The notes below the pieces were generated by a model that was not told the DNA's origin, ran no database searches, and saw only the letters and a list, made by a program, of their open reading frames with translations. Source: a virus. From it: a DNA stretch of 22,956 bases. Location: IMG/VR virus record IMGVR_UViG_3300009543_000754, positions 1-22,956 of that record. One strand, 5' to 3'. Made by a program: the position numbers and the translations under genes. Positions 1,685 to 22,776 of this stretch are shown here, piece after piece (positions within the stretch are counted from its first letter, which is position 1; each line of letters starts with the position of its first letter).

Positions 1685-1687
1685 ATA

Positions 1688-3393: not shown

Positions 3394-3446
3394 AAAACCT
3401 GTCCGTATCTTTACTATAAGATAAGAACTTTATTTCTAATAGACAA

Positions 3447-3647: not shown

Positions 3648-3648
3648 T

Positions 3649-3996: not shown

Positions 3997-4130
3997 CTTC
4001 CTTGACCTCTATATGCTTTCTTATAATTTCTACTGTTCTTCATTTTAGAACTTTTAGACTTTGAATGTACCCCTGGTCTTTTCTTTTTAGCTCCAGCATT
4101 GTACGTTCCTAGTTGTAGGACTTTTGCCAT
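3993..4130 (-). CDS. 45-residue highly basic phage protein
   Basis: The open frame ATG 4130 to TGA 3993 encodes 45 residues beginning MAKVLQLG, with a dense run of Lys/Arg (KKKRPGVHSKSKSSK) and ending in YKKAYRGQGR. It fits exactly between a 56-base spacer and the next gene, which it overlaps as ATGA. Very similar small basic proteins are, to my recollection, common in marine T4-like phages, but I could not check this. About a third of the residues are Lys or Arg, so nucleic-acid binding is likely. Function unknown. Confidence 0.75.
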   Translation of the reverse strand: MAKVLQLGTYNAGAKKKRPGVHSKSKSSKMKNSRNYKKAYRGQGR

Positions 4131-4186
4131 TATTTCTTTTTAATATAAATAGGGATAGTTTCTAATAAGCTGTGGTTATCTTAAAC

Positions 4187-4546
4187 TCACTCTATTATCT
4201 TATACATCTTAACTTTTAACTTACCTGTACCTTTAATTAATCTATGATAGACTCCTTTAGGTATAAATATACGAGAAAATTGTGATGGAGGCAAATTGTC
4301 TAATTGAAATTTCCAATCAGTATCGTGCATAGGTTCAACAATTCTGTCTTCTTTATCCCTATGCCATACAAATTCAAATGCAGGAGTATTGTTTGAAAAT
4401 TCTCTTACAACGTAGCCGTCTTTCTGAGTTTCAGAATAAGGTCTACCAGTATCCGCTAAAGTTTGATGATCCTCCAAGGCTTTTCCAATAACGTCCGATA
4501 TTACAGGACCAATATCCTGCTTTAGTTTTATCTTTTTTAGTAGCAC
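4187..4546 (-). CDS. Conserved-type phage protein with cupin-like C-terminus; start uncertain
   Basis: The frame ending at 4187 encodes a sequence with GYVVREF, a FVWHRDKEDR segment, DTDWKFQLDN and an IFIPKGVYHRLIKGTG segment near the end. The H-x-D and later Y-H-R placement suggests a small beta-barrel (cupin-like) fold, as an inference. The start is unclear: there is no ATG before the conserved part. The frame is open up to a TTG at 4618, and a GTG at 4546 gives a 119-residue product, which I list. Either choice overlaps the 3' end of the preceding gene by about 100-176 bases. No Shine-Dalgarno decides the matter. A 56-base non-coding spacer follows. Confidence 0.6.
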   Translation of the reverse strand: MLLKKIKLKQDIGPVISDVIGKALEDHQTLADTGRPYSETQKDGYVVREFSNNTPAFEFVWHRDKEDRIVEPMHDTDWKFQLDNLPPSQFSRIFIPKGVYHRLIKGTGKLKVKMYKIIE

Positions 4547-5228
4547 ATTTATGTCTAGCAGCAAAAGAAGCTCTTGCTCCTTTCTTTTTAAACTTAACTG
4601 AAAGTCCTGTATCTCCAAAAGAAACTTTCTTTACATTTCCTTTTTTCGATTTAACATAAACGTAGAATTTTTTACTGCCACCTCTCTTAGGCTTATTTAG
4701 AGCTACCTTTTTACCTTGGTATTCAAGCTCGTTCATATAACCTACAGAAGCTTTAAGCATATCGAATCCATTATAATCAAATGTTTCGTTTTGTAATGCA
4801 ACTGCTTGTTTTAATTTATCCATATCGATAGTACCTCCAATAGATTCAACTAGTTCTTTTACTAGTTCGAAGTCAACCATTTCTGATATTGATGTTGCTT
4901 CATCTATTGTGTCCTCGTTTTCAATCATTTCATCGATTAGAGATCCTATTTCGAATAATGGATTATATTTTTTTGACATCATTGGTAGGTCCAAAGGAAC
5001 TCTCATTCCATTATAGTCTCCATGCTCTCCGATATCAGTAGTCTCTAACAATTCTCTATCTTCTTCAGATAACTCTATCTCCTCGTTACTAAGAGCTTCT
5101 CGTGCTTCTTTGAATAGTTGTATAAAGGCTTCAGAGTTATAACGGTAGACATGCTCATGTAAAGAGAGTTTATTGTCTATGTGGTATTGTAGAGATGGGT
5201 ATCCTACTATGTCTTTTAATGTAATCAT
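4443..5228 (-). CDS. Phage protein with basic Cys/His C-terminal module
   Basis: This 261-residue protein has an acidic N-terminal half and a very basic C-terminal module from about residue 180. The module carries ARHKC (H226, C228), then YWSC (Y239-C242), and ends in an aromatic SGYW. The conserved-looking Cys and His residues suggest metal or nucleic-acid binding, though no named domain is certain. The N-terminus (MITLKDIVGY) loosely resembles the leader of three other proteins here but lacks the final I/L-x-E. The start codon overlaps the GIY-YIG gene's stop as ATGA. The 3' end overlaps the next gene in a different frame. Function unknown. Confidence 0.75.
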   Translation of the reverse strand: MITLKDIVGYPSLQYHIDNKLSLHEHVYRYNSEAFIQLFKEAREALSNEEIELSEEDRELLETTDIGEHGDYNGMRVPLDLPMMSKKYNPLFEIGSLIDEMIENEDTIDEATSISEMVDFELVKELVESIGGTIDMDKLKQAVALQNETFDYNGFDMLKASVGYMNELEYQGKKVALNKPKRGGSKKFYVYVKSKKGNVKKVSFGDTGLSVKFKKKGARASFAARHKCATKKDKTKAGYWSCNIGRYWKSLGGSSNFSGYW

Positions 5229-5719
5229 AAGTTAAAATCTTTTCTATAGAATTTACCGAGTACGTTATCATTCATGTATTGCTCATTATTATGTTCTAAT
5301 ACTCCATTAATAAATAGGTGCTTACATTCAAAATAAGTTAAAAGCTTCTTAGTAGGTACAAATTCTAAGATACGTTTTTCAAAATCTGATCTTAAATCTT
5401 TCGATTCTTTTACAAATTTTAATACGTCTTTATGTGACCCATAATAATCTCTCCAGTCTGATTCTTTTACAATTTTCTGTTTTAGAGGCGTTCGTCCTCC
5501 AATGCCTTTTGCTTTTCTTTCTTCTCTTAAAGCTTCAAGGGCTCTTTTTCCTAGTCTTTTATTACGCTCAAAGTATAGTACTTTTTTTCCTATGTACTTC
5601 AAGCCGGATGGCTTATGTAAGGTTTCATAAATAAAACCATAAGTGCCTTTCGGCATATCTGAAATCTCTGTTATAAGCCTACCCTGAAAAGTCCAGGTAG
5701 GGAGTGTTGGCATGTTCAT
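5225..5719 (-). CDS. GIY-YIG-like endonuclease
   Basis: This 164-residue protein carries a GIY-YIG type signature: Y-G-F-I-Y at 27-31 and K-Y-I-G-K-K at 41-46, a spacing typical of the family. A basic helix with many Arg/Lys follows (52-72), then DWRDYYGS (88-95), also common in phage members, and a Glu-containing segment near 114. Such enzymes cleave DNA, and many are homing endonucleases or resolvase-like repair nucleases. Its place directly after the tail fibre genes, 18 bases past the long fibre's stop, fits a free-standing mobile endonuclease, but it could be an ordinary phage nuclease. It is translationally coupled to the next gene by ATGA. Confidence 0.7.
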   Translation of the reverse strand: MNMPTLPTWTFQGRLITEISDMPKGTYGFIYETLHKPSGLKYIGKKVLYFERNKRLGKRALEALREERKAKGIGGRTPLKQKIVKESDWRDYYGSHKDVLKFVKESKDLRSDFEKRILEFVPTKKLLTYFECKHLFINGVLEHNNEQYMNDNVLGKFYRKDFNL

Positions 5720-5737
5720 AGTGATTAGGTTATGTCG

Positions 5738-7096
5738 CTAGAGCTTAGCTTTAAGCTCGTCAATCTGTAACTGCTGGTCTTTAGCAACTTCAATTAATAA
5801 CGCGACTAGTTTCTCATAACGTACTGCTTTAAATCCATCAGCTCTATCTACCACTATCTCAGGTAATACAGCTTGAATTTCTTGTGCTACAACACCGATG
5901 TCTCTACCTCGGTATGTATCTTGATTGTTATTCCAATCAAATGTATAACCACCTATCGCTTTTAATTTATCAATAGGATTAGCGATTGCGGTTATATTAT
6001 CTTTAAATCTTTTATCTGATGAAGCATATGCTACTATGTCTTGTGAACATTCTATAGGCACGCTAAAGAAAGCTTGGGTATCAGTTATTTTTGCTCTTGA
6101 GGTTCCGTCTACAGAAAATTCTAATTCATCTTGAACAGCAAATTCAAGTTTATGTGTTCCGGAAGTATTATAATATTTTATGTATCCGTAATTAGCAACA
6201 CTGTACCCTGTATTATACTCACCGAAGTTTAAACCCATTCCTGTATTAGCACCAAAGCTAATATCAGCATTCATGGAGTTGGTTCCACCTATGTTTAAGT
6301 AATTCTGTTCTACTCTAGTTGCAACTGCGTATCCTTCATCTTGATGGTTACCCCAACCTGCTACTGTATCCCAATCATCTATATCCACTTGTGCGATACC
6401 AAAAGCTGGTGAAGCAGTAAATATTGGATCAGTTTCTGATGTAAGAGCACTACCTGCGTTTAAAGCATAAGATGCTGTAAGGGCGTTTGTAGCAAAAGAA
6501 GACGTGATAGCATAATCAGCGTCTACTGCATTTTGTGCTCTTCTTGCTCCGTCTGCGTAAGATGCTGTAGTAGCATAAGAAGCTGATACTGAATTACCAA
6601 TGGTTGCTCCAGATATTGTACCGTTAATAACTAAGTCTTGTACTGTCGTTACTCTATTAACAGTTAAGTCTCTATTAACAGTTACTTTGTCTGTTAGTAT
6701 GTCACCTTCTACGGTAAGATCATTTTTAATTATACCGTTATTTGAAATGTATAATTCACTTCCTGATATATCTGCAGAGCTAATTATGTTGCCGGTAGAG
6801 GATAGAGTACCAGTAAAATCATGAGTATCGTCACTAGTATTACCAAATTTAGTTGATCCAGATTCAAATATTACTGATGAAGTAATGTACTCTGTGTTAA
6901 ATTCTTGTGCTGTTATTGTACCGGTTACTGTTAAGTCTCCTTCTAATGTGTCTGTAGTATTCTTTAATCTACTGCTTTCTATTGAACTAGATAATGCTGT
7001 GATAGAATTATTAGTAGCAATACTAGAAGCTATTCTTGATGCCTTTTCTGTACCGTCTACTAAAGCAGTAGAGCTAGATAATGCTGTTATGTTGCG
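5738..7096 (-). CDS. C-terminal part of the broken long tail fibre (S74 domain)
   Basis: This is the continuing frame, open from just after a TAA at 7097-7099. It has no ATG start near its beginning, and the first plausible alternative start is GTG at 6388, far inside the shaft. It encodes repeats (ITALSSS, TASYA), a W-rich segment around DDWDTVAGWG, and the S74 chaperone. The lack of a start supports its being the detached end of the upstream frame, not a separate gene. Confidence 0.7.
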   Translation of the reverse strand, partial: RNITALSSSTALVDGTEKASRIASSIATNNSITALSSSIESSRLKNTTDTLEGDLTVTGTITAQEFNTEYITSSVIFESGSTKFGNTSDDTHDFTGTLSSTGNIISSADISGSELYISNNGIIKNDLTVEGDILTDKVTVNRDLTVNRVTTVQDLVINGTISGATIGNSVSASYATTASYADGARRAQNAVDADYAITSSFATNALTASYALNAGSALTSETDPIFTASPAFGIAQVDIDDWDTVAGWGNHQDEGYAVATRVEQNYLNIGGTNSMNADISFGANTGMGLNFGEYNTGYSVANYGYIKYYNTSGTHKLEFAVQDELEFSVDGTSRAKITDTQAFFSVPIECSQDIVAYASSDKRFKDNITAIANPIDKLKAIGGYTFDWNNNQDTYRGRDIGVVAQEIQAVLPEIVVDRADGFKAVRYEKLVALLIEVAKDQQLQIDELKAKL

Positions 7097-7270
7097 TTAA
7101 GAGTTAAGTTTTGTTGAGCATCTGCAAGTTCTAGAGCTGTAACAATTTGGTCTCTTCTTGTATGAGCTGAGCTAGATAATGCTGTAATAGAATTATTAGT
7201 AGCAACAATAGAGGCTACTCTTGATGCTTTTTCATTAGCATCTACTAAAGCAGTTGATTGCGATAGTGCT
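6987..7270 (-). repeat. Degenerate coding repeats in the fibre shaft
   Basis: The motif ctagataatgctgt recurs at 6987, 7074 and 7172. The outer copies share long similarity (6987-7060 against 7172-7245) and encode two near-identical segments, A-L-V-D-x-x-E-K-A-S-R-[IV]-A-S followed by ATNNSITALSSS. The spacings are 87 and 98 bases. The second is not a multiple of three, and one added base would restore the frame, which locates the frameshift in that unit. Confidence 0.7.
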
Positions 7271-7953
7271 GTTAGTCTTGCCTCTCTCTGATCATGAACC
7301 GAACCACTATAGTTATAATAATCTGTAGTATCGGTAATGCCAATTTGAATAGAGCTTGAAACTAAAGTTGGTTTATTACGTTGAGTATTAAAGTCTGTCT
7401 CTCCGTATATCTTAGTACCGTATAGGTCTCCGTCTGCTGTAATATTTTGAAATGCTAGGATAGTACCTGCTTGCATTCCTCCATCTGCTATAACATCATT
7501 GTTAGAAACTATATCTCTAGTTGCTCTAATTGAACCAGTAAATATATGAGTATCGTCTAAAGAATCTCCAAATCTTGTAGATCCTGATTTATATAAAATA
7601 GAACTAGATACTAATGTTGTCTCAAACTGATGAGCATATATTGTACCGTCTAGATATATATTTCCTTTTTGGAATGTACTAGCAGAAATAAATAATTCTT
7701 GGTCCCACCATTTGTAGTTAAAGCTACTTACACCTTCCCAATTTCCTTGGTCATCTTTCTTTAACTGTACATTACCTATTTGACCTCCTGCTTTAGGAAG
7801 TTCAATTGCTATTGTGTTGTCGTTAGAAGAAGATTTAAATAGAGATAAGGTAGTATTAGATACAGAACCACTTAGTACAAACTCACTAAAGTTCTGATCT
7901 ATTTCAGCATGTGTTAATGCTTGTCCTTTCGCTCCTCTAAACGTTACTGCCAT
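7087..7953 (-). CDS. N-terminal part of the broken long tail fibre
   Basis: This is the portion that would be translated as sequence stands: 288 residues with the virion-attachment N-terminus shared with the short fibre, a beta-rich shaft and the first copies of the A-L-S-S-S repeats. It ends abruptly at NLTLNAT just where the next repeat should begin. Without the downstream S74 chaperone, trimer folding would probably fail. It begins one base after the stop of the short fibre gene. Confidence 0.7.
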   Translation of the reverse strand: MAVTFRGAKGQALTHAEIDQNFSEFVLSGSVSNTTLSLFKSSSNDNTIAIELPKAGGQIGNVQLKKDDQGNWEGVSSFNYKWWDQELFISASTFQKGNIYLDGTIYAHQFETTLVSSSILYKSGSTRFGDSLDDTHIFTGSIRATRDIVSNNDVIADGGMQAGTILAFQNITADGDLYGTKIYGETDFNTQRNKPTLVSSSIQIGITDTTDYYNYSGSVHDQREARLTALSQSTALVDANEKASRVASIVATNNSITALSSSAHTRRDQIVTALELADAQQNLTLNAT

Positions 7954-7954
7954 C

Positions 7955-8611
7955 TTATTTATTTTCTATTGCAGATAATCTCTGCTCTAAGTCTTTTATA
8001 ATGCTGTTTTGCTCGTTTACTGAACTTATAAGCAATCCAACTAAGCCATTGTAGTCTACACTAAGATAGCCATTATTATCTTCATTGACAACTTCTGGTA
8101 CAGCTTTTCTTACATCTTGGGCTATTACTCCTAATTTGTTTCCAGGTATACCTTTCAATTTATAAATAGTTCCGTCAATCAAATCTAGCCTACCTAATGC
8201 ATTATCTATAGGAGATATATCTTCTTTTAAGTTCCTATCTGATGATTGTAGTATAGTACCGGTTGCTTTAATGTCTCCAGTGACTGTTAATTGGTAAGTT
8301 AAGTCAGGAGTATCTGTTCCTGCATTAATAGCTACTCTTCCTGCTTCATCTACTAATAGACCTTCTCTTGTTGTTATTCCTGAAGAACCTGTAAAGTAAG
8401 CTATTCTTCCTTCTTGACCTACGTCTTGTAGACCTCTTATTAAACTAATTTCTATTGAACCGCTATTAACTGGCACTTGAGAACTTGAAGGATAATAAAG
8501 TGTGAAAGTATTTCCGTCTGCGGATGCAGATGTAAAGTAAGCACCAAAGTTATTGTCTACTTCACTGTAGGTTAATGCTTGTCCTTTATCTGCTCTAAAA
8601 TTTATTGCCAT
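7955..8611 (-). CDS. Short tail fibre with S74 self-processing chaperone
   Basis: This 218-residue protein has the N-terminal block MAINFRADKGQALTYSEVDN shared with the next fibre, so both probably attach to the same tail site. A short beta-rich region follows. From about residue 122 comes a peptidase S74 (endosialidase-type intramolecular chaperone) domain with the catalytic Ser124 and Lys129 in SDRNLK. Its C-terminus is helical (SIIKDLEQRL), as in the family. S74 domains assist fibre trimerisation and then cleave themselves off just before the serine. After cleavage only about 123 residues would remain, an unusually short fibre; it may act as an adaptor. It starts one base after the preceding gene. 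Confidence 0.82.
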   Translation of the reverse strand: MAINFRADKGQALTYSEVDNNFGAYFTSASADGNTFTLYYPSSSQVPVNSGSIEISLIRGLQDVGQEGRIAYFTGSSGITTREGLLVDEAGRVAINAGTDTPDLTYQLTVTGDIKATGTILQSSDRNLKEDISPIDNALGRLDLIDGTIYKLKGIPGNKLGVIAQDVRKAVPEVVNEDNNGYLSVDYNGLVGLLISSVNEQNSIIKDLEQRLSAIENK

Positions 8612-8612
8612 T

Positions 8613-9644
8613 TTATATATCTAATTTTACTACAAATGTCATATCTACGTTATGTGACTTTGGTATTGGTCTGTTAGTTTTAGCTACTGCAATCAAATCA
8701 TTAGCTTCATTATACAGTCCTACTGTTGTAATATAAGGTTTAAATTCGTCTCCTAAAAGATTTTCCTTAATATTTTTAAACGAACCAGTCACAGCTGTGC
8801 GATTATAGGTATGATTTAATTCATATTCTTTAACTGTACAGTGTATATTATATGTATAAATAGGTAGTTTTGAAATCCAGGATACATTTATTCTAGCATA
8901 AGTAGAATAGTATCTTGCCAATATAGGGTCAGTAATTATAATTTGACCTTGATTATATATAATATCTCCAACTACTCTTTCTGTTCTTGTATAAGGGTCT
9001 GTTGATCCCGAAACTAATATCCTTCCGTCACCATCGTCAATTAACTCTATTCTTTGCTGACTAAAGTTACTTTGAGTAACAAATTGTTCTGCTGATTCGT
9101 CTATATAATCTCCTTCATCCTCTAAATAGTCATCTTTATCTAGTGGTTGAGAACCGTACCACCAGTTAACTCTTTCAATATAATCTTGAATATATATACC
9201 GTCTGAGGCATATCCGTCAACTACATAAGCGTCATCTACTGTTAATTCTGGTTCAAGTCTAAGTGATAGAGGTTTAATACCTATTCCGTATACTTCTTTA
9301 GGTATAGATATAACTGCTACTTCTTCTGCTATTGCTCTAGAACCTGTCTGAGTTAATGTAGAGGTAACTGAGATATCATGACTACCTGAAAATATTGGGT
9401 AGTCTGTTAATGAACCTACTGTGTTTCCATAGTAGTTGTGCTTTACACTATCGTAATTTAGCTTTTGATGGCGGTTATTGAGAAGGTCTAATGGGTAGGG
9501 ATATCCTGGTGTAGACCCAGAAAACCCTCTCATAACTTCTATTCCATAGTCAGATATATCACTACCTGATGCTACCCAATTCTTGTAGGAAAGGTAATCA
9601 GATACATATAGATCTTGCTTAGATAGTTTTTTGTATGCACTCAT
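8613..9644 (-). CDS. Tail structural protein, paralogue A
   Basis: This 343-residue protein begins MSAYKKLSKQDLYVSDYLSY. The middle is beta-rich with many S-G-S and T-G-S turns, typical of phage virion proteins. The last 60 residues hold a block, ITTVGLYNEANDLIAVAK, that matches the end of the next-upstream gene almost residue for residue. The two therefore share a C-terminal domain and an overall size, pointing to an old duplication. The place between tail proteins and fibres suggests a baseplate, collar or fibre-attachment component. I know of no enzymatic motif. It starts three bases after the stop of the preceding gene. Confidence 0.7.
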   Translation of the reverse strand: MSAYKKLSKQDLYVSDYLSYKNWVASGSDISDYGIEVMRGFSGSTPGYPYPLDLLNNRHQKLNYDSVKHNYYGNTVGSLTDYPIFSGSHDISVTSTLTQTGSRAIAEEVAVISIPKEVYGIGIKPLSLRLEPELTVDDAYVVDGYASDGIYIQDYIERVNWWYGSQPLDKDDYLEDEGDYIDESAEQFVTQSNFSQQRIELIDDGDGRILVSGSTDPYTRTERVVGDIIYNQGQIIITDPILARYYSTYARINVSWISKLPIYTYNIHCTVKEYELNHTYNRTAVTGSFKNIKENLLGDEFKPYITTVGLYNEANDLIAVAKTNRPIPKSHNVDMTFVVKLDI

Positions 9645-9647
9645 TCA

Positions 9648-10673
9648 TTAATAATCAAGCTTAATTCTTACCAAAGTTTCTTTTGTGAAATCTTTAAGTA
9701 ATGGTCTTGATAGTTTGGCTACAGCAAGTAGGTCATTATTATCGTTGTATAGTCCGACTGCTGTGATAAATGATTGAGGTGAATCAATCATTACGTCATG
9801 CCTTAGTTCACCAGAACCTGTAATTAAGGAAGGGTTAGTAGAATAGTTGAACTCTCCGTTTCTTGCTCTAACAAATACAAAGTTAGATGAGATAGTTTCT
9901 TCTGATTGTAATCTTATACTTCCTGAATGTCTTAGGAAGTCAAATACTTTACGTTGGTTAAGACCAGCAGATTGACCTGCTCTATCTGTGTTTAATTGTA
10001 TACCTCCGTTAGCTACTGTTTCGTCTAATGCTGTTCCGTTAAGTAATACTACTCCAATATCTGGAAGTAGTTTACCGTACGATCCTGATGCTTTTGTATA
10101 GCCTGTTTCTGATATAGACTTATTAACTCCGGTTTGTACTGAACCGGATACTAAATCATAAACACGTCCTGCATCTGTAAATGTTGTTGTAGATAAAACT
10201 GAACTGTTATCTATTACAGTAAGTCTATTAGCACTTCCTGATTCTTGTAATGATAGTTCAAATGAACCAGGTAAAAGTTTTTCTCTGTATCTTGCTCTAT
10301 CTATTGCTAATACATAAAAGTGATCTGAGGATACTCCTCCGAAATTAAAATTACTTTCTTCATCTCCTAATACTACATTTCTAAATTGTCCATATATAGT
10401 AGATGATGGAGAGTAACCAGGTACTCCGTTATTATAATCTAATGATCCTCCTCCTTGTTTGTCTGCATATGCAATAGAGAATTGTACTCTTGCCTCATTA
10501 GTAACAGCTTCTGCTTGATATATATCGTAATAATAATCTGCTGAAGTTCCGCCAATTTGAGTAGAGGAAGTAAAAAATGTATTAAGTGTTGTTGCGTCCC
10601 CTGTCCATAGAGGTGTAGTTACTGACTCTGCACTAACTACTATATCTTCTGTATCGAATCTTTTAAATGACAT
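9648..10673 (-). CDS. Tail structural protein, paralogue B
   Basis: This 341-residue protein begins MSFKRFDTEDIVVSAESVTT and ends with the block ITAVGLYNDNNDLLAVAK shared with the neighbouring 343-residue protein. The N-terminal and middle regions differ more from that paralogue. Composition (Ser, Thr, Gly, Asn, few Cys) is that of a virion protein. ATG at 10673 lies two bases after the preceding stop, with no Shine-Dalgarno. Its role in the tail or baseplate is inferred from context only. Confidence 0.7.
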   Translation of the reverse strand: MSFKRFDTEDIVVSAESVTTPLWTGDATTLNTFFTSSTQIGGTSADYYYDIYQAEAVTNEARVQFSIAYADKQGGGSLDYNNGVPGYSPSSTIYGQFRNVVLGDEESNFNFGGVSSDHFYVLAIDRARYREKLLPGSFELSLQESGSANRLTVIDNSSVLSTTTFTDAGRVYDLVSGSVQTGVNKSISETGYTKASGSYGKLLPDIGVVLLNGTALDETVANGGIQLNTDRAGQSAGLNQRKVFDFLRHSGSIRLQSEETISSNFVFVRARNGEFNYSTNPSLITGSGELRHDVMIDSPQSFITAVGLYNDNNDLLAVAKLSRPLLKDFTKETLVRIKLDY

Positions 10674-10675
10674 AA

Positions 10676-11332
10676 TTAGCTAGTTTTAGTAATGGTTACT
10701 GGAATTGTTAATCTTGCTCCGGAACCTCTACCTATTACAGTAACTGTTGTCTGTAATTGTTGTCTATCTCCAAATAAAGTATTAACAGATGTTGCAGTTA
10801 AATTTACTGCTGTTCCTATTACAGTTTTGGAAACATTAGTTCCAACTGTTGAAACACTATTTAATCTTTCTGCATCTTCTGTGTTAATACCTACACCTTG
10901 GAAAGAGTTAAGAACTCTTACATCGGCAATTGTAGCAGTATATCCTTCTGTTTCGAAGATTGAAGTTGCACCTAAATAGTTTAATGTTTGAGGAGTTAAA
11001 GCTAGAGAAGCTCCTTGTTTTAAAGTAATAGAACTATACCCAATATCAAGTACAGGTAGTTTAGAAGTACCTCTTGGTAATGTAGTAAGTTTATATTTCA
11101 TAATTTGTGTCTCATCAGGAAAAGCTTCCAATAGTGGCATGTTTTCAATTGCCTCTCCATAGAGTGCAGAACCTGAGGGATGTTGTGGATTGTATAAGGT
11201 GTAATCAATCTCGTCATCTGCTAATGCAAATTGAGTGATTTTAAAAGAACCGTCCCCTCTAGCTAACAGCTCTCTTCCTTTTTTTGTTAAGATAGCATCC
11301 ACAGTTACTATCGAATTATCTAAATATCCCAT
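10676..11332 (-). CDS. Tail/virion structural protein
   Basis: This 218-residue protein starts MGYLDNSIVTVDAILTKKGR and continues with GDGSFKITQFALADDEIDY, a N-terminal pattern I associate with virion proteins of marine T4-like phages and relatives, though I could not search for it. The C-terminal half is rich in Thr and Val with regular beta character. A 44-base AT-rich spacer precedes the gene. It includes TATATAAAA on the coding strand, which only loosely resembles a T4 late promoter. The translation start is preceded by A-rich sequence without a Shine-Dalgarno. Confidence 0.7.
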   Translation of the reverse strand: MGYLDNSIVTVDAILTKKGRELLARGDGSFKITQFALADDEIDYTLYNPQHPSGSALYGEAIENMPLLEAFPDETQIMKYKLTTLPRGTSKLPVLDIGYSSITLKQGASLALTPQTLNYLGATSIFETEGYTATIADVRVLNSFQGVGINTEDAERLNSVSTVGTNVSKTVIGTAVNLTATSVNTLFGDRQQLQTTVTVIGRGSGARLTIPVTITKTS

Positions 11333-11376
11333 TTGTTTATTTGTGTTTTATATAAATATGTGTTAATTAAAGTTTC

Positions 11377-12354
11377 TTAGTTTCTTTTATTTGTACCTCC
11401 AACTTGTCCTGATTCTGAAAGTGTATATATGACATCGTCTTCAATACCGTATACTTTTTGATTTGTAATTCTATTCATACTGTTCCCTTCAGAAGAAAAG
11501 AGAAAGTTACCTGCTACAGGGAAGTTAGGATAAACTAATTCAGAACCTGTTGTAGTTAAGGTTGTGTTGAAAAATACATCTATCGTTTTTCTTTCTGCTA
11601 TTTCTCTTATTGTATCATCTGGTGCATCTGTTGAATGGATACTACCTTGAAAGGATCTAAATCCAAGTGCGGGTTCATTACCTGTAATTCCGGTTGCTAA
11701 AACAGCATCGGTAAATTTCTGTTTATTATATTGAGTTACTGTTCTGGCGTTTGTTTCTTTAGTACCGGTATACTTAGCATTTATACTCCCTACTTTAGTA
11801 TACGAACAATTCTGTAATTGTGCTTCTTCTGCTTGTTCTTGAAGTATTGCTGTTAAGTTAGTAGGGTTATTTTGGCTGGCAAATCTATCTACTACCTGAG
11901 CTATTGCGTTTACTTTACTAGTTTCTGAGTTATTAATAAGAGGATTGTAGTCGCTATTATTAAATGATGATTGTACGTATGGTACAAATACAAAAGCAGA
12001 ACCAGATACTAAAGGCTCTCCACCTGGGCCAACTCCAGTTGGGTAATTATCAGTAAGAATCGGTTGAACTAAGTAATAGAAGTATCCGTTTTGTTTACGT
12101 TTACCTGTTATATCTACCGATACTTGCTCATTACCAAAGTCAAATCTAAGTGACTGTACCTCTCTTAATGCTGGTCCAATAGGTACTCCGTTTTTAGAAG
12201 TATCAGGAATGCTTATACCTAAAACTGTATAAGGAGGTATTGCTTCTCCTTGAGTATTAGAACCTGTATAGGATACACTACTGCTTAATAGAAGATTAAC
12301 TCTTCCATTTCCGTACTTTTGTGGGGCTGTTTCTATAAACTGTTCTCTAGTCAT
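11377..12354 (-). CDS. Putative tail/baseplate protein of unknown function
   Basis: This 325-residue protein begins MTREQFIETAPQKYGNGRVN. It is polar, rich in Asn, Thr, Ser and Gly, has one Cys (in QNCSYTK) and a beta-type C-terminus ending in GGTNKRN. No recognised motif is present. It directly abuts the 1037-residue protein gene (stop at 12355, start at 12354), so the two are likely co-translated parts of the same structure. A structural role is inferred from position in the tail cluster. Confidence 0.65.
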   Translation of the reverse strand: MTREQFIETAPQKYGNGRVNLLLSSSVSYTGSNTQGEAIPPYTVLGISIPDTSKNGVPIGPALREVQSLRFDFGNEQVSVDITGKRKQNGYFYYLVQPILTDNYPTGVGPGGEPLVSGSAFVFVPYVQSSFNNSDYNPLINNSETSKVNAIAQVVDRFASQNNPTNLTAILQEQAEEAQLQNCSYTKVGSINAKYTGTKETNARTVTQYNKQKFTDAVLATGITGNEPALGFRSFQGSIHSTDAPDDTIREIAERKTIDVFFNTTLTTTGSELVYPNFPVAGNFLFSSEGNSMNRITNQKVYGIEDDVIYTLSESGQVGGTNKRN

Positions 12355-15300
12355 TTATATAAATTTTGCAGTATATCTATATCCGTAGGTATCTTCGGTG
12401 TTATTATAAATAGTTAACCTATTGCTAGTTGTGACTAGGGTGTCATCTTGGTCAAACCAACCTACAAACCCTCCGTAGTATCCATATACCCCTGTTGCTT
12501 CTACAACTACATATTCATATTCGTTAAACTCATGTATATAGTCAAAACTAGTAACATCTGTATACTGTGCCATATCATCCTCTATTTCACGGCGGATGAT
12601 TTGTTCCCAATTTCTCATCTCATTTGCATGCTTTTCTGCTAGGTCTTCTGAGTTTCCTACTTCATCTACTTCTTCCCACCATTCAGCAGTACCTGTTCTA
12701 GGAGCTAGAGGAGGTATTGTCCAATAATCTCTAACAACTGCAGGAGGGTAAATTAATGAAACAGTTCCGTTACCTGTTCCTCCAGTTGCAAATCCATAGA
12801 ATTCTCCTTCATAATGAGCGTTAAGGCTAATAAGACAAGCAGGAGGAAGCGGTAGAGATAAGTTAAAAACGGTTATATCAAAAGTTAAATCTGGTTGAAC
12901 TAATGCTAAGTAGGGATTTAATTTACCTAATTCTCCATCTGTAGTAACTACAAAAGAACCGCTTAACTCTCCATTGTATTGTGGCTCCTCAGCAGTTATA
13001 TTATACTCTGCTAAACCTGTAGGAGTACCAATCGTTCTATTGTAGTTAGTAGTATAATCATAGCTAGAAGATAGATCATATGCACCAGCTGATGATCCAG
13101 TGGCAGACCCTATTTTAATAGATCCTGTTTCGATAGATTCTATTACTCCTACTTCTACTTGTTTTATTTTATTTCTAGATAGTTTATGACCTTTTATTAT
13201 AATACCTGTATCTACTTTTGTTCTTGCAGGTACAAAGTCTTTAATAATTTTAAATAAAGAACTATCAAAAAAGTTTAAAAGTCTTACAAAAGCTTTAGGG
13301 TGACGAGAATATTCTAATCTATGTTGCCATTCCCAATCTGCTTTTTCCCAATCTTTTTGTATATCTTCCCAAAAGTATCCGCTATTAACGATATCTTCAG
13401 CTAATTTCTTTAATGGTGGATAGTTTCTTTCGTATCTAGTTCTTGGATCACCTATGTAGTCATCTAAGTCAAAACTTCCACTTTCATTTAACTTTCCTGT
13501 CTTAAGGTCTATAAAGTCATCTGTACCTCTAGAAATATTAAACCCTACCTCTACATGATGTAAGTCATCTGTATATGTTTTATCTGGTCTAACAATAGAT
13601 ACAAATTTAGATAGTGTACTACCGGTAACTATACTACCTGTATTATCTGTTCTTATTTTAAGTTCTGAACTAGATGTTGTATAGCTTTCAGGGCCGAAGT
13701 ATTGCGTTTCACTTAAGTTTACTCCTCCAAATGTTTTTATACTTAATATTTCTGGTGTAATACCAAAGCAGTTAATTAAGGCTCTAAGACCTCTTTCTGT
13801 ACCTTTAGTTTTTATTAAGTAAGGTAAATTATGATATATTCTTTTATGAATCTCTTTTTCATAATCTAGTTTAGCTATAGGCTGTAAATGTTCTAAAGCT
13901 GTACTACCACTATTATATGATGCAGAAGTTGCAACAGACATTGTAGTAATAATCTCGCTTCCAGTTTCAGGTGTTTCACCGATAAAAGAAGCAAATATAT
14001 TATCCATATTCATATTTGAAGAATATAGATTTACACCAAAAGATTCTACTGCTGATCTAACTAAATCTTTAGATACCCCAAATTTTAATCTATTATCAGC
14101 ATCGTACTTATCTGATACTGCTTTAAAGTATACCCACATATTATCAAAATGCTGTCCAATCATATGAATGAACATAAGGTAAGCTTCATTGTTTTTGTCC
14201 TCTCTAATGAAGGTTGGAATAGTATTTGTTAATATATCAAAGTTAGATACATCGTAATTATTAGCTTCAGCAACCTTTCTATTAAACCAAGTTTCTGCTT
14301 GTAGAGTATCACTTACAATGTTTAAATGTGGTTTCTTAGTTGTTGATTTAGGCCAAGCATGACTACCGCTTTCAAAGTATAAGAACCTATCATAGTGGTC
14401 AAAATTAGTTACTATACCTTTAATAAGGGTATCATAATGTTCTATACTGCCTGAAGCACCTGCTGCATATGTTGAGCCTGGAGTTTGACTTCTTAGAACT
14501 TTTAATTGTTCATAAGATTCTATTAACTCTAATTTATATTTAAAGTTTCTTAGTCTTTCTTCTGCTGAAGAGAAATTTATAAAATCTGAGAAGTCAGTAT
14601 GGTCTATAGTAATTTGAGCACTCTTTTCGTTAAAAAGTGAATAGAGTTCGAAGTAAGAGTTTTCTACTGGGTAACTAAATAATTCGTTATAATTAAGAAA
14701 CTCAGTTGGATTACTGTCCATTTCTGGTAGCTCTAGATTAAAGTTAGGTCCTTTTAAATAAGGAACTTTAACTACTTCATCTATTAATGAACTTCTAACT
14801 TCAAATAGTTGATCATCTGATACTATTTCGTTTACTGTAAATGTATCCTTAACAGAAACACTACCCGGTAAAGGTTCATAACTCTTTAAGAATATAGCTA
14901 TACCTTGTGGAAGTTTCTCTACTCCTAAATTTAAACCAAGTACTGATGTATTTTCACCAAATTGTATTTTAAATTCTGAGAAGTAACTAGAGGCTTTTAA
15001 TTCTGCTATAATTTTATTAGCATACTCTTCTACTTTAGCATCAGGTATATTAGAAGCTAAAGCTCTAAATTCTGTTCTATCAGAGGAGATAGACTCAATA
15101 AAGAATTGACCTCCAAATTGACTTTCAGAAAATAAGTTATTAGTAAAGGAATATAGTAATCTAACATCTCCTCCTTGGAAACCATACTTATCTATATCTC
15201 TTTCTATATCTATAGTTAGTGTACTAGCACCAGATTCACCTGCAGACTGAGCATTACCAAGTAGAGAGTAGTCTTTGAAATACTCTTCTGATGTAATTAA

Positions 15301-15468
15301 ATCCCCTTCTAGGTTTGTTATATCTAATCTAACATTTGCTTGTGTAGTATTGAATACATTCTTAATCTCATATGAATTTATGAGTTCAGCATCTGCTACA
15401 CTAAGTACCTTAGCTTTAGGATTGTCTGCTATCTCTAGCGGTAATATGTCGTATCTGTACTTAGCCAT
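12355..15468 (-). CDS. Large tail/baseplate structural protein
   Basis: This 1037-residue protein is the largest phage gene here. Near residues 545-585 it carries LPYLIKTKGTERGLRAL followed by a Cys-Phe-Gly turn and a FGG motif. This signature recurs in large tail or baseplate proteins of diverse phages (established as a recurring pattern; named function unclear). The C-terminal region from about residue 850 is rich in Pro, Gly, Tyr and Trp and may be a beta-domain for host or fibre contact. By size and neighbours it might stand in for the T4 gp7 wedge protein, but no homology can be claimed from reading alone. ATG at 15468 follows an AT-rich leader with no Shine-Dalgarno. Confidence 0.7.
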   Translation of the reverse strand: MAKYRYDILPLEIADNPKAKVLSVADAELINSYEIKNVFNTTQANVRLDITNLEGDLITSEEYFKDYSLLGNAQSAGESGASTLTIDIERDIDKYGFQGGDVRLLYSFTNNLFSESQFGGQFFIESISSDRTEFRALASNIPDAKVEEYANKIIAELKASSYFSEFKIQFGENTSVLGLNLGVEKLPQGIAIFLKSYEPLPGSVSVKDTFTVNEIVSDDQLFEVRSSLIDEVVKVPYLKGPNFNLELPEMDSNPTEFLNYNELFSYPVENSYFELYSLFNEKSAQITIDHTDFSDFINFSSAEERLRNFKYKLELIESYEQLKVLRSQTPGSTYAAGASGSIEHYDTLIKGIVTNFDHYDRFLYFESGSHAWPKSTTKKPHLNIVSDTLQAETWFNRKVAEANNYDVSNFDILTNTIPTFIREDKNNEAYLMFIHMIGQHFDNMWVYFKAVSDKYDADNRLKFGVSKDLVRSAVESFGVNLYSSNMNMDNIFASFIGETPETGSEIITTMSVATSASYNSGSTALEHLQPIAKLDYEKEIHKRIYHNLPYLIKTKGTERGLRALINCFGITPEILSIKTFGGVNLSETQYFGPESYTTSSSELKIRTDNTGSIVTGSTLSKFVSIVRPDKTYTDDLHHVEVGFNISRGTDDFIDLKTGKLNESGSFDLDDYIGDPRTRYERNYPPLKKLAEDIVNSGYFWEDIQKDWEKADWEWQHRLEYSRHPKAFVRLLNFFDSSLFKIIKDFVPARTKVDTGIIIKGHKLSRNKIKQVEVGVIESIETGSIKIGSATGSSAGAYDLSSSYDYTTNYNRTIGTPTGLAEYNITAEEPQYNGELSGSFVVTTDGELGKLNPYLALVQPDLTFDITVFNLSLPLPPACLISLNAHYEGEFYGFATGGTGNGTVSLIYPPAVVRDYWTIPPLAPRTGTAEWWEEVDEVGNSEDLAEKHANEMRNWEQIIRREIEDDMAQYTDVTSFDYIHEFNEYEYVVVEATGVYGYYGGFVGWFDQDDTLVTTSNRLTIYNNTEDTYGYRYTAKFI

Positions 15469-15471
15469 TTA

Positions 15472-15816
15472 TTAAAAATCGATATCAGGTTTATTAGCTT
15501 CTATTAACTGTTCTTGGTAAGATAGTATTTGTTCTCTTAATTGACTAATTTCATCTAATAAAGGTTGAATATCTTCTGTGTCTTTTTCAAAATCAACTAA
15601 CTCAGTACTCTTCATAATAAGGTAATGATGTGATTTTGTTTCTCCGTCAGGAGAGATTTCGTAATATAATCTTTCGTAATCCGCAAAGAACTCTTCAATC
15701 GTAGTTGGCTGTATTTCTTCTTTTACTTGTCCATAGGCCTTGAAGGACCTATCCACAACTTTATTGAATGCAGCTTTATCGTAAACCTTTTTCTTTATTT
15801 GAATGTCTCTAGCCAT
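15472..15816 (-). CDS. Small tail-cluster protein with C-terminal coiled coil
   Basis: This 114-residue protein starts MARDIQIKKKVYDKAAFNKV. The last 35 residues (LLDEISQLREQILSYQEQLI) have heptad spacing of Leu/Ile and many Glu/Gln, so a coiled coil is likely. The gene overlaps the end of the preceding gene by eight bases and lies three bases before the large structural gene. An adaptor or bundle-forming role in the baseplate is plausible but inferred only. Confidence 0.65.
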   Translation of the reverse strand: MARDIQIKKKVYDKAAFNKVVDRSFKAYGQVKEEIQPTTIEEFFADYERLYYEISPDGETKSHHYLIMKSTELVDFEKDTEDIQPLLDEISQLREQILSYQEQLIEANKPDIDF

Positions 15817-16864
15817 TTCTTACTACTTTGAATAAATTATCTTCACTAAATATTACTGTGCTATTATCCAAGGTTGTCTTAACTTTTAATTTATAGTAAC
15901 GTTCTGGTGCTAGCATTTCCATATCTATATCAAAGTAGCTACCTTCTCCGTCTGCATTAATATTAGTGAAAGGGCTAAACTCTACTATTGTTTCGTTACT
16001 AAAATGATCTACTATAGAATAATAAGAAGCTGCTGGTAAAGCGTAGTTCGTTTTATAAATAGACTCAGTAGAAAATGTTCTAGTTGGAAAGTTAGGTTTT
16101 GCTGATATTCTAAATCTAGCAGATCCTTTATTTACATATTGTCTTTTTTGATTAGATATATAGACTCTTGAATTATCTGTATCTAATTCTGATACACCTG
16201 GGTTATAGAAATCGTTAACTTCTTTAAACTCTAAGTAAGGTTTAAATATAGTATTAGTATCGGACCCATAGTACTTAAGGGAAATAGAAGCATCTGTATA
16301 ATCTTCGTATTGGTCTTCTAATTTAAGTATTAGTCCGTAATTAGTAATTGAACCACTATAATGAGCTTTAACTATTTCTGTTACATCTATAGCTAAATCT
16401 AAACTATTATCTCCTACTTTCATTGTAGAGGTAGAGAATGTATTTGCAATATAGCTTCCTCCATCTGCACTCCATGCTGTCCCTATTCCATCCCTGTCTT
16501 TCCATGTAACACCGGTGGTATTAGTAGGTATATCATTTACCTTACCTACCCCATTTTGCCATGACTCTGATACGGGATATACCTCTATATTAAAGTTAAA
16601 AGGGAGTTCAGAAGCTTCAGCTATAGGTAAATGAAGAGAACAAGATATAAGACCACCTGTCTTACTATCTACTACTTTTCTAATATCTTCTGTATTAAAA
16701 TCCATTAATATCCTTTTCGATCTTCCTTTATCATCATCACTGCTATCAGGATATCCAGCAATCTCCAGTATTTCATCTTTACCGGCGTTACCGTACACAC
16801 CGGCTACATCTGGTGCTGACCAGATTGTACTGTCTTGGTTTGGGTAAATTCTATGTATGGCCAT
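15809..16864 (-). CDS. DNRLRE-like structural protein
   Basis: This 351-residue protein begins MAIHRIYPNQDSTIW. The first 200 residues show the pattern of DNRLRE-type beta-sandwich domains: an initial I-Y-P-x-x-D-x-T-I segment, R-I-L-M-D-F as an early core strand, then SESWQNGVG and GVTWKDRDG, and a late Y-G-S segment followed by KPYLEF. The remaining part looks like a second beta-domain. Such domains occur in phage tail and baseplate proteins and in adhesins. It starts one base after the stop of the gp6-like gene, so it belongs to the same tail unit. The domain call is moderate. Confidence 0.65.
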   Translation of the reverse strand: MAIHRIYPNQDSTIWSAPDVAGVYGNAGKDEILEIAGYPDSSDDDKGRSKRILMDFNTEDIRKVVDSKTGGLISCSLHLPIAEASELPFNFNIEVYPVSESWQNGVGKVNDIPTNTTGVTWKDRDGIGTAWSADGGSYIANTFSTSTMKVGDNSLDLAIDVTEIVKAHYSGSITNYGLILKLEDQYEDYTDASISLKYYGSDTNTIFKPYLEFKEVNDFYNPGVSELDTDNSRVYISNQKRQYVNKGSARFRISAKPNFPTRTFSTESIYKTNYALPAASYYSIVDHFSNETIVEFSPFTNINADGEGSYFDIDMEMLAPERYYKLKVKTTLDNSTVIFSEDNLFKVVRNG

Positions 16865-16865
16865 A

Positions 16866-18074
16866 TTATAATGTTGTTACTCTTCCTTCTATATCAGTGT
16901 CTGGGTATTTCAATTCAAAAATACAAGGATCGTAAGAAGGGTAAACTATGTTATCTTTAGTAGCCCCTGCTGTATCGTATCCGTATTCAGAATATCTTCC
17001 TCCTACCTTATTTGTTATCTTTATATTTTTAACTGTTTGTACCCCTTTGACTTGGTCTAGCAATGTATAGACTGAGGATAGGTTAATTGGTTGGTTAATG
17101 TTCCATCTCTTTATATCGAAATGTTCCCTTAGAGCGTTATTACATTGAAGTAATACATCTCTAGATCCGTAATTAGGTAATGTTAGTATTTCAAACTTAA
17201 CTCCGATATTTACTATAAATGCATCTTTCATATCAATTGCATCAGTAATCATCATATATTGACCTAAGTAGTTTTTCAAGTTACGTTTCAATGTATCTGT
17301 AGCTACAATTAAATGTCCATCTATATTATATGCTAAGGTATACATTGATAGAGCTAAAGGATTACGTTCTAATGGTCCAGAGTTAGAGTTAATTACCATT
17401 TCATTAGTAACAAATGTCTTAGCGATTGAACCAAATTGAGCGGGTAGTGATAATGCTCTTACTGTATAGTCATTTGTTGTAACTGCTCTTTTTTGTTCTG
17501 CAAAAGACCTTAGAGAGTTTTCTCTTAACTCTTCTATTGTATCTCCATCTTTACCTCCTGCAGCTGGTTTATCGTTTGTGAATCCTAATGTACCTACTTT
17601 ATCGGTATTAGCAGGTGTGCTTCTTAATATGATGCCGTTTGCGTTAATAGTGTTTGCCGGAACGTTTGCTGCTACACCTCCACCAACTAGGTATCTAACT
17701 GTCAATGTTGTATTAGAAGGAGCTATACCATATGTCTTAGTAAATAAGAAGTTGGTTGGGTCATATGCTTTATCGAGTTTATCTACTGCATACTTATTTC
17801 CGTACTTCTTTATAGTAGTAGGATCAGGTAGAAACTCTTCATCGAATGCTTCGGTAACACCGGCTCCGAATTGTATTTGTAATACTCCTTTAGATGTAAA
17901 CCTAGTTATAAATCTTTTAGATATTCTCTTTAATTTAAGTAGAGCAGGAACTAGATCATTATCTGAGTTATTATTAGTTTCTTCTTTAAATACAGTGTCT
18001 TGAGCTAGAAAAGGAACTTCTGTCCATTCTTCTCCATCGCTATCAGTAATAGATAAAACTCTAATTATCCCCAA
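16866..18074 (-). CDS. Baseplate wedge protein, gp6/J-like, 5'-truncated
   Basis: The 402 visible residues show features of the gp6/baseplate-J family: a region with GKDGDTIEELRENSLRSF followed by the AVTTNDY segment (residues about 175-205), after which comes a long alpha/beta C-terminal part with DQVKGVQTVKNIKI. In T4, gp6 forms the inner wedge ring of the baseplate. T4 gp6 is about 660 residues, so 200 or more N-terminal residues may be missing. The apparent TTG start at 18074 lies inside the plastid petN sequence, and the phage-derived reading probably begins at the codons for IIRVLSITDSD. The upstream part is lost at the contig join. Confidence 0.75.
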   Translation of the reverse strand: MGIIRVLSITDSDGEEWTEVPFLAQDTVFKEETNNNSDNDLVPALLKLKRISKRFITRFTSKGVLQIQFGAGVTEAFDEEFLPDPTTIKKYGNKYAVDKLDKAYDPTNFLFTKTYGIAPSNTTLTVRYLVGGGVAANVPANTINANGIILRSTPANTDKVGTLGFTNDKPAAGGKDGDTIEELRENSLRSFAEQKRAVTTNDYTVRALSLPAQFGSIAKTFVTNEMVINSNSGPLERNPLALSMYTLAYNIDGHLIVATDTLKRNLKNYLGQYMMITDAIDMKDAFIVNIGVKFEILTLPNYGSRDVLLQCNNALREHFDIKRWNINQPINLSSVYTLLDQVKGVQTVKNIKITNKVGGRYSEYGYDTAGATKDNIVYPSYDPCIFELKYPDTDIEGRVTTL

Positions 18075-18080
18075 ACTACA
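18060..18080. other. Join between phage and plastid DNA
   Basis: On the minus strand petN reads to V-V-W-G, then TAA appears where R-[NS]-G-[LF] is expected, and the sequence at once becomes the phage baseplate frame. Both genes are interrupted at the same point, within a few bases of 18,068-18,074. No transposon end, repeat, integrase or attachment site is visible at the join. A contig chimera is the simplest explanation. Confidence 0.85.
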
Positions 18081-18145
18081 AGAGAAAGAGAGAAACTAAA
18101 GCTAACCATTAAGAAAGCCCAACCTGCACTAACAATATCTGGCAT
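18065..18145 (-). CDS. petN: Cytochrome b6f complex subunit PetN, C-terminally cut
   Basis: The frame ATG 18145 to TAA 18065 encodes 26 residues, with D-I-V-S near the start, one hydrophobic membrane helix and FSLSLVVWG at the end, matching PetN of the cytochrome b6f complex. PetN is normally 29-31 residues and ends in a short tail after V-V-W-G. Here the last three to five residues are missing because the phage sequence begins, and the stop comes from phage DNA. A Shine-Dalgarno AAGGAA lies six bases upstream. The gene follows psaB by 37 bases, so they may be co-transcribed. Confidence 0.85.
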   Translation of the reverse strand: MPDIVSAGWAFLMVSFSFSLSLVVWG

Positions 18146-18151
18146 AATAAA

Positions 18152-18157: not shown

Positions 18158-18182
18158 CGATTGATTTTATTTTATTCTAATA

Positions 18183-20387
18183 TTAACCGAATTTACCAGA
18201 AGTTGAAGCGATAAGGAATGCAGCATATGTAAATACATATCCTACAGAGAAGTGTGCTAAACCAACTAAACGTGCTTGAACAATTGATAAAGCAACTGGC
18301 TTATCTTTCCAACGAACTAGGTTAGCAAGCGGTGTACGCTCGTGTGCCCATGCAAGTGTTTCAATAAGCTCTTGCCAGTAACCACGCCATGAGATAAGGA
18401 ACATGAAACCTGTAGCCCAGATAAGGTGTCCAAATAAGAACATCCAAGCCCAAACAGATAAACTGTTCATACCAAATGGGTTGTAACCATTAATTAGCTG
18501 AGATGAGTTTAGCCATAGGTAATCACGTAGCCAACCCATTAAATAAGTTGAAGACTCATCAAATTGGCTAGCATTTCCTTGCCAAAGTGTGATGTGCTTC
18601 CAATGCCAATAGAATGTTGTCCAACCGATTGTGTTTAACATCCAGAAAACAGCTAGGTAGAAAGCATCCCATGCAGAAATGTCACAAGTACCGCCACGGC
18701 CTGGACCGTCACAAGGGAAACTGTAACCAAAATCTTTCTTATCCGGCATTAGCTTAGAACCACGAGCATCTAAAGCACCCTTAACAAGAATAAGCGTTGT
18801 TGTATGAAGACCAAGTGCAATTGCATGGTGTACTAGGAAATCACCAGGCCCAATAGTTAGGAATAGTGAATTTGTACTACTGTTAATTGCATCTAGCCAA
18901 CCTGGTAACCAGATTGATTGACTTGCAGCTAATGCTGAACTATCAGCAGATGATAGTAGAACATCAAAGCCGTATAAAGACTTACCTTGAGCTGCTTGTA
19001 CCCACTGAGCAAAGACTGGCTCAATAAGGATTTGCTTTTCAGGTGTACCAAAAGCTTGCATTACGTCGTTATGTACGTATAAACCTAATGTATGGAAACC
19101 TAGGAATAATGTAACCCAACTTAAATGTGAGATAATAGCTTCTTTATGCTCTAGCATACGTGCAAGAACGTTACCTTCATTTAGTTCTGGATCATAGTCA
19201 CGAATAAAGAAGATTGCACCGTGAGCAAAAGCACCAGTCATGATAAAACCAGCAATATATTGGTGGTGCGTGTAAAGCGCTGCCATTGTAGTAAAATCTT
19301 GTGCCATAAAAGCATAAGGTGGAAGCGAGTACATATGCTGAGCTACCATTGAAGTAATAGTACCAACAGATGCAAGAGCTAGACCTAGCTGGAAATGAAG
19401 TGAGTTGTTTACTGTATCGTAAAGTCCCTTATGACCAGCACCTAGACGACCAGATGGAGCAGTGTGTGCATCAAGAATTTCTTTCATACTGTGACCGATA
19501 CCAAAATTAGTACGGTACATATGACCAGCAATAATGAAAACAACTGCAATAGCTAGATGGTGGTGAGCCATGTCTGTTAGCCATAAACTTTGTGTTTGTG
19601 GGTGGAAACCACCAAGGAAAGTTAAAATAGCTGTACCAGCACCTTCAGATGTACCAAACATATGTCCAGCTGTATCTGGGTTTTGTGCATAAACTGACCA
19701 GTTACCGCTAAAGAATGGAGCTAAACCAGCTGGGTGAGGAAGTGTGCTTAGGAAATTATCCCAACGTACATGCTGACCTCGAGATTCTGGAATTGCAACG
19801 TGAACTAAGTGACCAGTCCATGCTAATGAACTTACACCAAATAATCCTGATAAATGGTGGTTAAGTCGAGACTCAGCATTCTTAAACCATGAAAGGCTTG
19901 GACGGAACGCAGGCTGTAAATGAAGCCATCCTGCAAAAAGTGTTCCTGCTGCAACTAGAAGAAGGAATAGTGAACCTTGGTATAGGTCAACATTCGATCG
20001 CATACCAATAGTGTACCACCACTGGTAAACACCAGAGTAAGCAATGTTTACAGGACCTGAGGCCCCACCACGTGTAAACGCTTCAACTGCAGGTTGACCA
20101 AAATGTGGATCCCAAATTGCATGTGCAATAGGACGAATATGTAGAGGATCTTTAACCCATGCTTCAAAGTTACCTTGCCACGCTACATGGAAAAGGTTTC
20201 CTGATGTCCATAGGAAAATAATAGCTAATTGGCCAAAGTGTGAAGCAAAGATCTTTTGGTAAAGATTTTCTTCTGTCATTCCGTCATGACTTTCAAAGTC
20301 ATGAGCAGTTGCTATCCCGAACCAAATACGACGAGTCGTTGGGTCCTGGGCTAGACCTTGGCTAAACTTTGGAAATTTTGTTGCCAT
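18183..20387 (-). CDS. psaB: Photosystem I P700 apoprotein A2 (PsaB)
   Basis: This 734-residue protein is one half of the photosystem I reaction-centre heterodimer in the thylakoid membrane. It binds P700, the primary acceptors and, with PsaA, the 4Fe-4S cluster FX. The FX loop [12 protein letters not shown] is intact with Cys559 and Cys568. The P700 axial histidine is His654 in the FGHLIW segment, with the A0-ligand Met662 eight residues on. Full length for the family, with 11 expected membrane helices and no internal stops. The start is ATG 20387 with a Shine-Dalgarno 11 bases upstream. It follows psaA by 133 bases. Sequence is plastid-like. Confidence 0.98.
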
Positions 20388-20398
20388 AGTCTTTTCAT

Positions 20399-20520: not shown

Positions 20521-22776
20521 CTATCCAACTGCAATAATACGAGCTAGGAAGAATGACCAGGTTGTTGCAATACCACCTAATAAGTAGTGAGTTAGACCAA
20601 CTGCACGACCTTGAGTAATGCTTAGTGCTCGTGGCTGAATGCCTGGAGCAACTTTAAGTTTGTTATGAGCCCAAACAATTGACTCGATAAGCTCTTGCCA
20701 GTAACCACGTCCACTGAAAAGGAACATTAAACTGAATGCCCAAATGAAGTGAGCACCTAGGAAAATTAGACCGTAAGCTGATAAAGCTGAACCGTATGAC
20801 TGAATAACTTGTGAAGCTTGCGCCCATAAGAAATCACGTAGCCAACCGTTTACAGTGTTAGCACTTAGACCAAAGTTTCCACCAGTAATGTGTGAAACAC
20901 CTTTAGCTGTTAAGTTACCCCAAACATCAGATTGCATCTTCCAACTGAAATGGAAAATAACGATTGAAATTGAGTTATACATCCAGAAGAGTCCAAGGAA
21001 AACGTGATCCCAAGCTGAAACTTGACATGTGCCGCCTCGACCTGGACCATCACAAGGGAATCGGAAACCTAGGTTTGCCTTATCCGGGATTAGTCTAGAA
21101 CTACGGGCAAATAGAACACCTTTCAGAAGAATTAGAACTGTAACGTGAATCGTAAAAGCGTGAATATGGTGAACCATGAAATCCGCCGTACCTAACGAAA
21201 TCGGCATCATTGCAATCTTACCACCAACAGCAACAATATCTCCACCCCAAGTAGGACTAGTACTTGATAGAGCATTAGGAGCAGTTAAGTTTGGAGCTAA
21301 GTAATGAGTCTTTTGAACCCACTGTGCAAAAACAGGCTGAAGTTGAATCGCAGTATCTGAGAACATATCCTGCGGTCGGCCTAAAGCTGACATTGTATCG
21401 TTATGAATGTATAGACCGAAACTATGGAAACCTAAGAAAATACAAATCCAGTTTAAGTGAGAGATAATTGCATCACGGTGACGAATTACTCGATCTAAAA
21501 GGTTGTTGTAGTTATTAGTAGGATCATAATCACGAACCATGAAAATAGCGGCGTGAGCAGCAGCACCTGTAACACAAAAACCACCAATCCACATATGGTG
21601 TGTAAATAGTGAAAGTTGTGTACCATAATCTGTTGCAAGATAAGGGTAAGGTGGCATTGCATACATATGGTGTGCAACGATAATTGATACAGAACCCATC
21701 ATTGCTAAGTTAATAGCTAATTGAGCATGCCAAGATGTCGTTAGAATTTCATATAAACCTTTGTGGCCTTCACCAGTAAAAGGACCTTTATGAGCTTCTA
21801 GAATTTCCTTCATACTATGACCAATTCCCCAATTTGTACGGTACATATGACCGGCTACAAGGAAAAGAACAGCAAGTGCTAAATGGTGGTGAGCAGTATC
21901 ACTAAGCCATAAACCACCTGTTACAGGGTTTAAGCCACCACGGAAAGTTAAGATATCTGTGTACTCTGCCCAGTTTAGGGTAAAGAATGGAGTTAAACCT
22001 TTGCCAAAACTAGGAAAAAGTTGAGCCATTAATTCACGGTTTAGTAAAAACTCATGAGGAAGAGGAATCTCTTTTGGATCAACCCCAGCATCTAAAAGTT
22101 TGTTTACTGGTAACGCAATATGAATTTGGTGACCAGCACATGAAAGACAACCTAGACCTAATAAACCAGCTAAGTGGTGGTTAAGCATAGATTCTACATT
22201 CTGGAACCACTCTAATTTAGGAGCAGCTTTATGGTAATGGAACCAACCAGCAAAGAACATAAGGCCAGCCATGATAAGGCCACCAATTGCTGTACTGTAT
22301 AATTGAAGTTCACTAGTAATACCGCTTGCACGCCAGATTTGGAAGAAACCAGAAGTGATTTGTACACCTTGGAATCCACCACCAACGTCACCGTTCAGAA
22401 TTTCTTGGCCAACAATTGGCCAAACAACCTGAGCACTTGGCTTAATATGAGTTGGGTCACTTAGCCATGCTTCGTAGTTTGAAAAACGAGCACCATGGAA
22501 ATACATACCACTAATCCAAAGGAAAATGATAGCTAATTGGCCAAAGTGAGCACTAAATACTTTACGTGAAATTTCTTCAAGATCTGTTGTATGACTGTCA
22601 AAATCATGTGCATCTGCATGCAGATCCCAAATCCATGTAGTTGTCGCAGGCCCTTTCGCAAGGGTACGTGAGAAATGACCAGGCTTTGCCCATTTCTCAA
22701 ATGATGTTTCAACTGGATTTCGATCGACAACAATTTTTACTTTTTTTGCTTCTCGTTCCGGTGGGCTAATTGTCAT
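20521..22776 (-). CDS. psaA: Photosystem I P700 apoprotein A1 (PsaA)
   Basis: This 751-residue protein pairs with PsaB to form the photosystem I core. The FX loop [12 protein letters not shown] is intact (Cys575 and Cys584). The P700 axial histidine is His676 in the LGAHFIW segment, followed by the A0-ligand Met684. Length equals that of plastid PsaA. The N-terminus ([20 protein letters not shown]) and the segment [17 protein letters not shown] are of plastid type; picocyanobacterial PsaA has longer, different loops there. ATG 22776 is preceded six bases upstream by AGGAGA. An upstream region of 180 bases reaches the window edge. Confidence 0.98.

Follow-up and report, generated by a model that had tools for sequence, protein, structure and literature searches.

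A virus record in IMG/VR that is very probably a chimeric contig of phage DNA and green-alga plastid DNA

Results

A record with two sources

The window analysed here is an IMG/VR virus record, linear and 22,956 bases long. Its two halves are of separate origin, and the phage half goes on differently, and intact, in three near-identical contigs. The halves match different source genomes, phage contigs in one case and a green-lineage plastid in the other, and a single breakpoint cuts genes of these two unrelated genomes, petN and a phage baseplate gene. At its opposite end the contig is phage DNA, which runs on as phage in the IMG/VR contig 3300009606_000349, so that the window contains no second plastid junction. 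It is very probable that the record is a chimeric metagenome contig of phage and green-alga plastid, a conclusion that is strongly supported rather than proven. One breakpoint truncates both a virion gene and petN, in one assembly only, and the phage half still has an identity of at least 99.8% with free phage contigs, as would be expected of a chimeric fragment or a mis-assembly. We infer that the join was made in vitro or in silico and not in a cell. The features on both sides of the join are collected in Table 1.

Table 1. Features of the window on either side of the join
Feature	Position	Strand	Evidence
Phage segment, native gene order, related to Immutovirus	1..18068	-	At least 99.8% identical to bases 7971-26039 of 3300009606_000349; synteny with immuto
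3' two thirds of gp6-like baseplate wedge gene	16866..18068	-	PHROG 6 and 219, baseplate wedge subunit; relatives carry the gene whole (605 aa)
Breakpoint	18068..18069	.	Identity to three near-identical phage contigs ends at 18068; base-level comparison
petN, 3'-truncated	18069..18145	-	PF03742, E=1.1e-9, model 2-25 of 29; translation
psaB, green-lineage plastid type	18183..20387	-	PF00223; PDB scores
psaA, green-lineage plastid type	20521..22776	-	Best PDB scores to green-algal chains

The phage half

The genes at positions 1-18068 are phage genes and lie on the minus strand; they include zeta-toxin/ATPase-like, exonuclease, primase, tail fibre and baseplate genes. Contig 3300009606_000349 (33,422 bp) spans this whole region without interruption at its bases 7971-26039, with an identity of 99.8-99.98% piece by piece and 22 differences in all, i.e. 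21 substitutions and one 1-bp gap. Two further contigs match it over shorter lengths, 3300009080_000157 over 3,338 bp at 99.91% and 3300003216_000082 over 4,631 bp at 99.05%, and all three are independent, coming from other data sets. The BLAST identity of each of the three with the window ends at base 18068, and comparison of the contigs to the base puts the join between phage and plastid exactly between bases 18068 and 18069. In more distant contigs (77-81% DNA identity) the alignment also reaches 18068, and the gp6-like gene is whole.

The closest named phages have Flavobacterium, which is non-photosynthetic, as their host. One of them, Flavobacterium phage vB_FspM_immuto (Immutovirus), has the same order of gp25-like gene, gp6-like gene and downstream structural genes, and its gp6-like protein is 58.7% identical to that of the window; it differs in that its gp6-like gene is whole (about 607 codons by annotation), whereas the window has two thirds of the gene and then plastid DNA.

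Some smaller observations concern the phage half as such. At position 7092 the window has one base fewer than 3300009606_000349, which splits a 738-codon tail-fibre-like gene into the ORFs 7087-7953 and 5738-6388; an error in sequencing or assembly may account for the missing base. Differences from that contig are concentrated at 6158-7186, in the tail-fibre-like gene, which contains most of them along with imperfect internal repeats of about 114 bp that are 84% alike. Near the start of the window two ORFs that share a strand but not a frame, a lipoprotein-like one (764-1684, rich in W, N, R and Y) and the zeta-toxin/ATPase-like one (61-1002), overlap by about 240 bp, and the true extent of one of them is probably smaller than annotated.

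The plastid half

Positions 18069-22956 hold the 3'-truncated petN, psaB and psaA. The highest PDB scores of PsaA are to chains of 6ijj and 7yca, and those of PsaB to 8htu and 6l35, entries that we take to be the photosystem I of Chlamydomonas, Ostreococcus and moss. The best cyanobacterial loci reach 86.6% identity for psaA and 88% for psaB, and the cyanophage P-TIM68 only 66% and 72%, respectively. On the strength of these scores and identities the plastid most likely belongs to the green lineage; a cyanophage or cyanobacterial origin of psaA and psaB is ruled out by the same two measures.

When psaB of the window was searched against IMG/VR, no other contig matched, and the search with psaA returned one cyanophage-like contig, 3300030060_007213. 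At its positions 1-4090 this contig has psaA and psaB of cyanophage-like type and, after them, an ORF that by eye resembles a T4-type RegA, and it is thus of the known kind of cyanophage photosystem I cassette. The psaA and psaB of another contig, which is assigned to the bin of an uncultured Clostridia genome, are 85-87% identical to those of the plastid; this contig probably contaminates the bin and comes from a cyanobacterium or a plastid, or else the genome is misnamed.

In this green-lineage plastid petN lies directly downstream of psaB (18145-18183). This neighbourhood was absent from 80 cyanobacterial loci and from P-TIM68, a green plastid that has petN beside psaB was not found in the literature searched, and neither was an intact plastid relative across petN found. 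petN is not among the 71 shared plastid genes that PMC4194372 used for its set of 47 taxa, and the linkage of petN and psaB may therefore help to identify the alga.

One breakpoint, two broken genes

The three near-identical contigs run past 18068 into the same upstream part of a whole gp6-like gene of 605 codons, which in 3300009606_000349 is preceded by a gp25-like gene. In the window the first ~205 of these 605 codons, present in all near-identical relatives, are absent, and the minus-strand ORF that can be drawn there (16866-18074) begins at a TTG, at 18074, that falls in plastid sequence. Of 65 gp6 relatives examined, 64 are closed by an upstream stop codon before their contig ends, the 65th running off its contig, and all 64 carry a further 158-223 upstream codons; the break of the window was seen in none of these 64, which have enough upstream DNA to judge. 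On the other side of the join, petN (minus strand, start at 18145) translates to MPDIVSAGWAFLMVSFSFSLSLVVWG, 26 codons, after which a TAA is supplied by the phage DNA.

Composition switches as abruptly as homology, as judged by tetranucleotide profile, GC and AT skew. Every 2-kb window before the border correlates at 0.89-0.96 with the phage profile and at 0.55-0.68 with the plastid profile, and after the border the relation is reversed, with each profile including the windows tested against it. No direct repeat of at least 12 bp was found that links the two sides, and the longest word that the phage region around the break has in common with the initial 600 bases of the plastid side measures 10 bp. 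At the breakpoint itself, the phage continuation (plus strand, ATTCTCTTC...) and the plastid sequence that stands in its place (CCCCAAACT...) have nothing in common. Neither the ORFs nor the family matches of the window include an integrase, at the join or elsewhere. Neither the 26-base junction word nor the 33-base plastid word adjoining the junction had a match in the other IMG/VR contigs scanned; for the junction word this is weak evidence, as records very near the window may be omitted from the scan.

Much of this had been anticipated in the first-pass annotation of the stretch. It held that petN loses its last residues at the join, and indeed the match to the PetN model ends at position 25 of 29, the last four positions being absent; that neither recombination machinery nor a flanking repeat is present, which agrees with the searches for an integrase and for direct repeats of at least 12 bp; and that gp6-like proteins are longer, as the 605-codon gene that is whole in near-identical contigs confirms. 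The intact gene, which it proposed to seek in related phage contigs, was found there as predicted, with three near-identical contigs running through the break. The annotation's statement that the gp6-like gene loses its start was right as to a truncation at the join, but understated the damage, with ~205 of 605 codons and everything upstream gone.

Discussion

Obviously, an abrupt join of this kind has to be weighed against the possibility that it existed in a living cell, and the best surviving form of that possibility, although we consider it very improbable, is that a phage fragment with virion genes was inserted very recently, by non-homologous repair, at the 3' end of petN in a green plastid genome. 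The lack of common sequence at the join is what one would see in end joining, and phage-like primase genes, as well as other DNA of bacterial origin, are known from green plastids (PMC5088586, PMC4487195 and PMC4194372). Those primase genes, in the plastids of Nephroselmis, Pyramimonas, Oedocladium and Tydemania, resemble the present case in being phage-like DNA in green plastid genomes, but there the plastid genomes are fully assembled and the genes are of replication type, whereas the window has virion structural genes on one contig with an unsupported join. In the portions of the green-plastid literature covered by our search, no phage virion genes in plastid DNA are described.

Against an insertion stands the phage half itself, whose identity to free phage contigs of other data sets is still at least 99.8%, with only one 1-bp gap, and any insertion would therefore have to be extremely recent. 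It would also break petN, which encodes a subunit of the cytochrome b6f complex. There is neither an integrase nor an attachment repeat, in the sense of a direct repeat of at least 12 bp across the join, and the junction was not found elsewhere in the IMG/VR records scanned. Lastly, of the two junctions expected of an insertion one is present in the window, although nothing can be read from a fragment about the DNA past its end.

One may also consider that the phage itself carries plastid photosynthesis genes, in the manner of the photosystem I cassettes of cyanophages, since psaA and psaB are known in cyanophage P-TIM68 and in IMG/VR contig 3300030060_007213. P-TIM68 is like the window in having psaA and psaB together with phage genes, but its cassette is psaJF-C-A-B-K-E-D, in an intact phage genome and with phage-type sequences, whereas here plastid-type psaA and psaB occur with petN next to a broken phage gene. 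We find this scenario scarcely credible, given the low identity to P-TIM68 noted above and the top scores to green-algal and moss chains, the destruction of the phage's own baseplate wedge gene that such an insertion would entail, the non-photosynthetic Flavobacterium hosts of the closest named phages, and the three near-identical phage contigs without psaA, psaB or petN at this site. Hardly any weight can be given either to plastid DNA having been packaged in phage particles and joined there, in a process like generalised transduction, for which nothing speaks beyond the join itself, as the relatives infect Flavobacterium, plastid DNA is out of reach of a phage inside an infected bacterium unless that DNA had been taken up, and a packaged chimera would still require recombination.

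We therefore return to the chimeric contig, in which an Immutovirus-like phage fragment and a fragment of a green-alga plastid genome, both in the sample, would have been joined end to end, either through a chimeric library fragment or read or through an error made by the assembler. De Bruijn assembly usually depends on a word common to both sequences; since the join has none, a physical chimeric fragment must be assumed, which counts against the chimera. So does the existence of acquired phage-like or bacterial genes in green plastid genomes (PMC5088586, PMC4487195 and PMC4194372). Chimeric library reads are, on the other hand, a documented cause of chimeric virus-host contigs in RNA-seq (PMC8376068). 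Those contigs share with ours an abrupt, homology-free join of virus to unrelated DNA that is seen in one assembly only; they differ in that they were demonstrated with reads and come from RNA-seq, whereas the window is DNA and its chimeric nature is deduced from assembled contigs. The proposal of the first-pass annotation, a chimeric contig of algal plastid and phage DNA, has thus held up, with the intact gp6-like gene in sister contigs and a plastid side of the green lineage that is neither cyanophage nor cyanobacterial.

If the join were true, it would be the first case of phage virion genes in plastid DNA, as far as the portions of the literature searched go. Almost certainly, however, it is not a biological feature, and the contig is a laboratory or assembly artefact that holds nothing biologically new. 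As an artefact its value is only that of a warning: the IMG/VR record should be split at 18068/18069, which would keep psaA, psaB and petN from being counted as photosynthesis genes carried by a phage.
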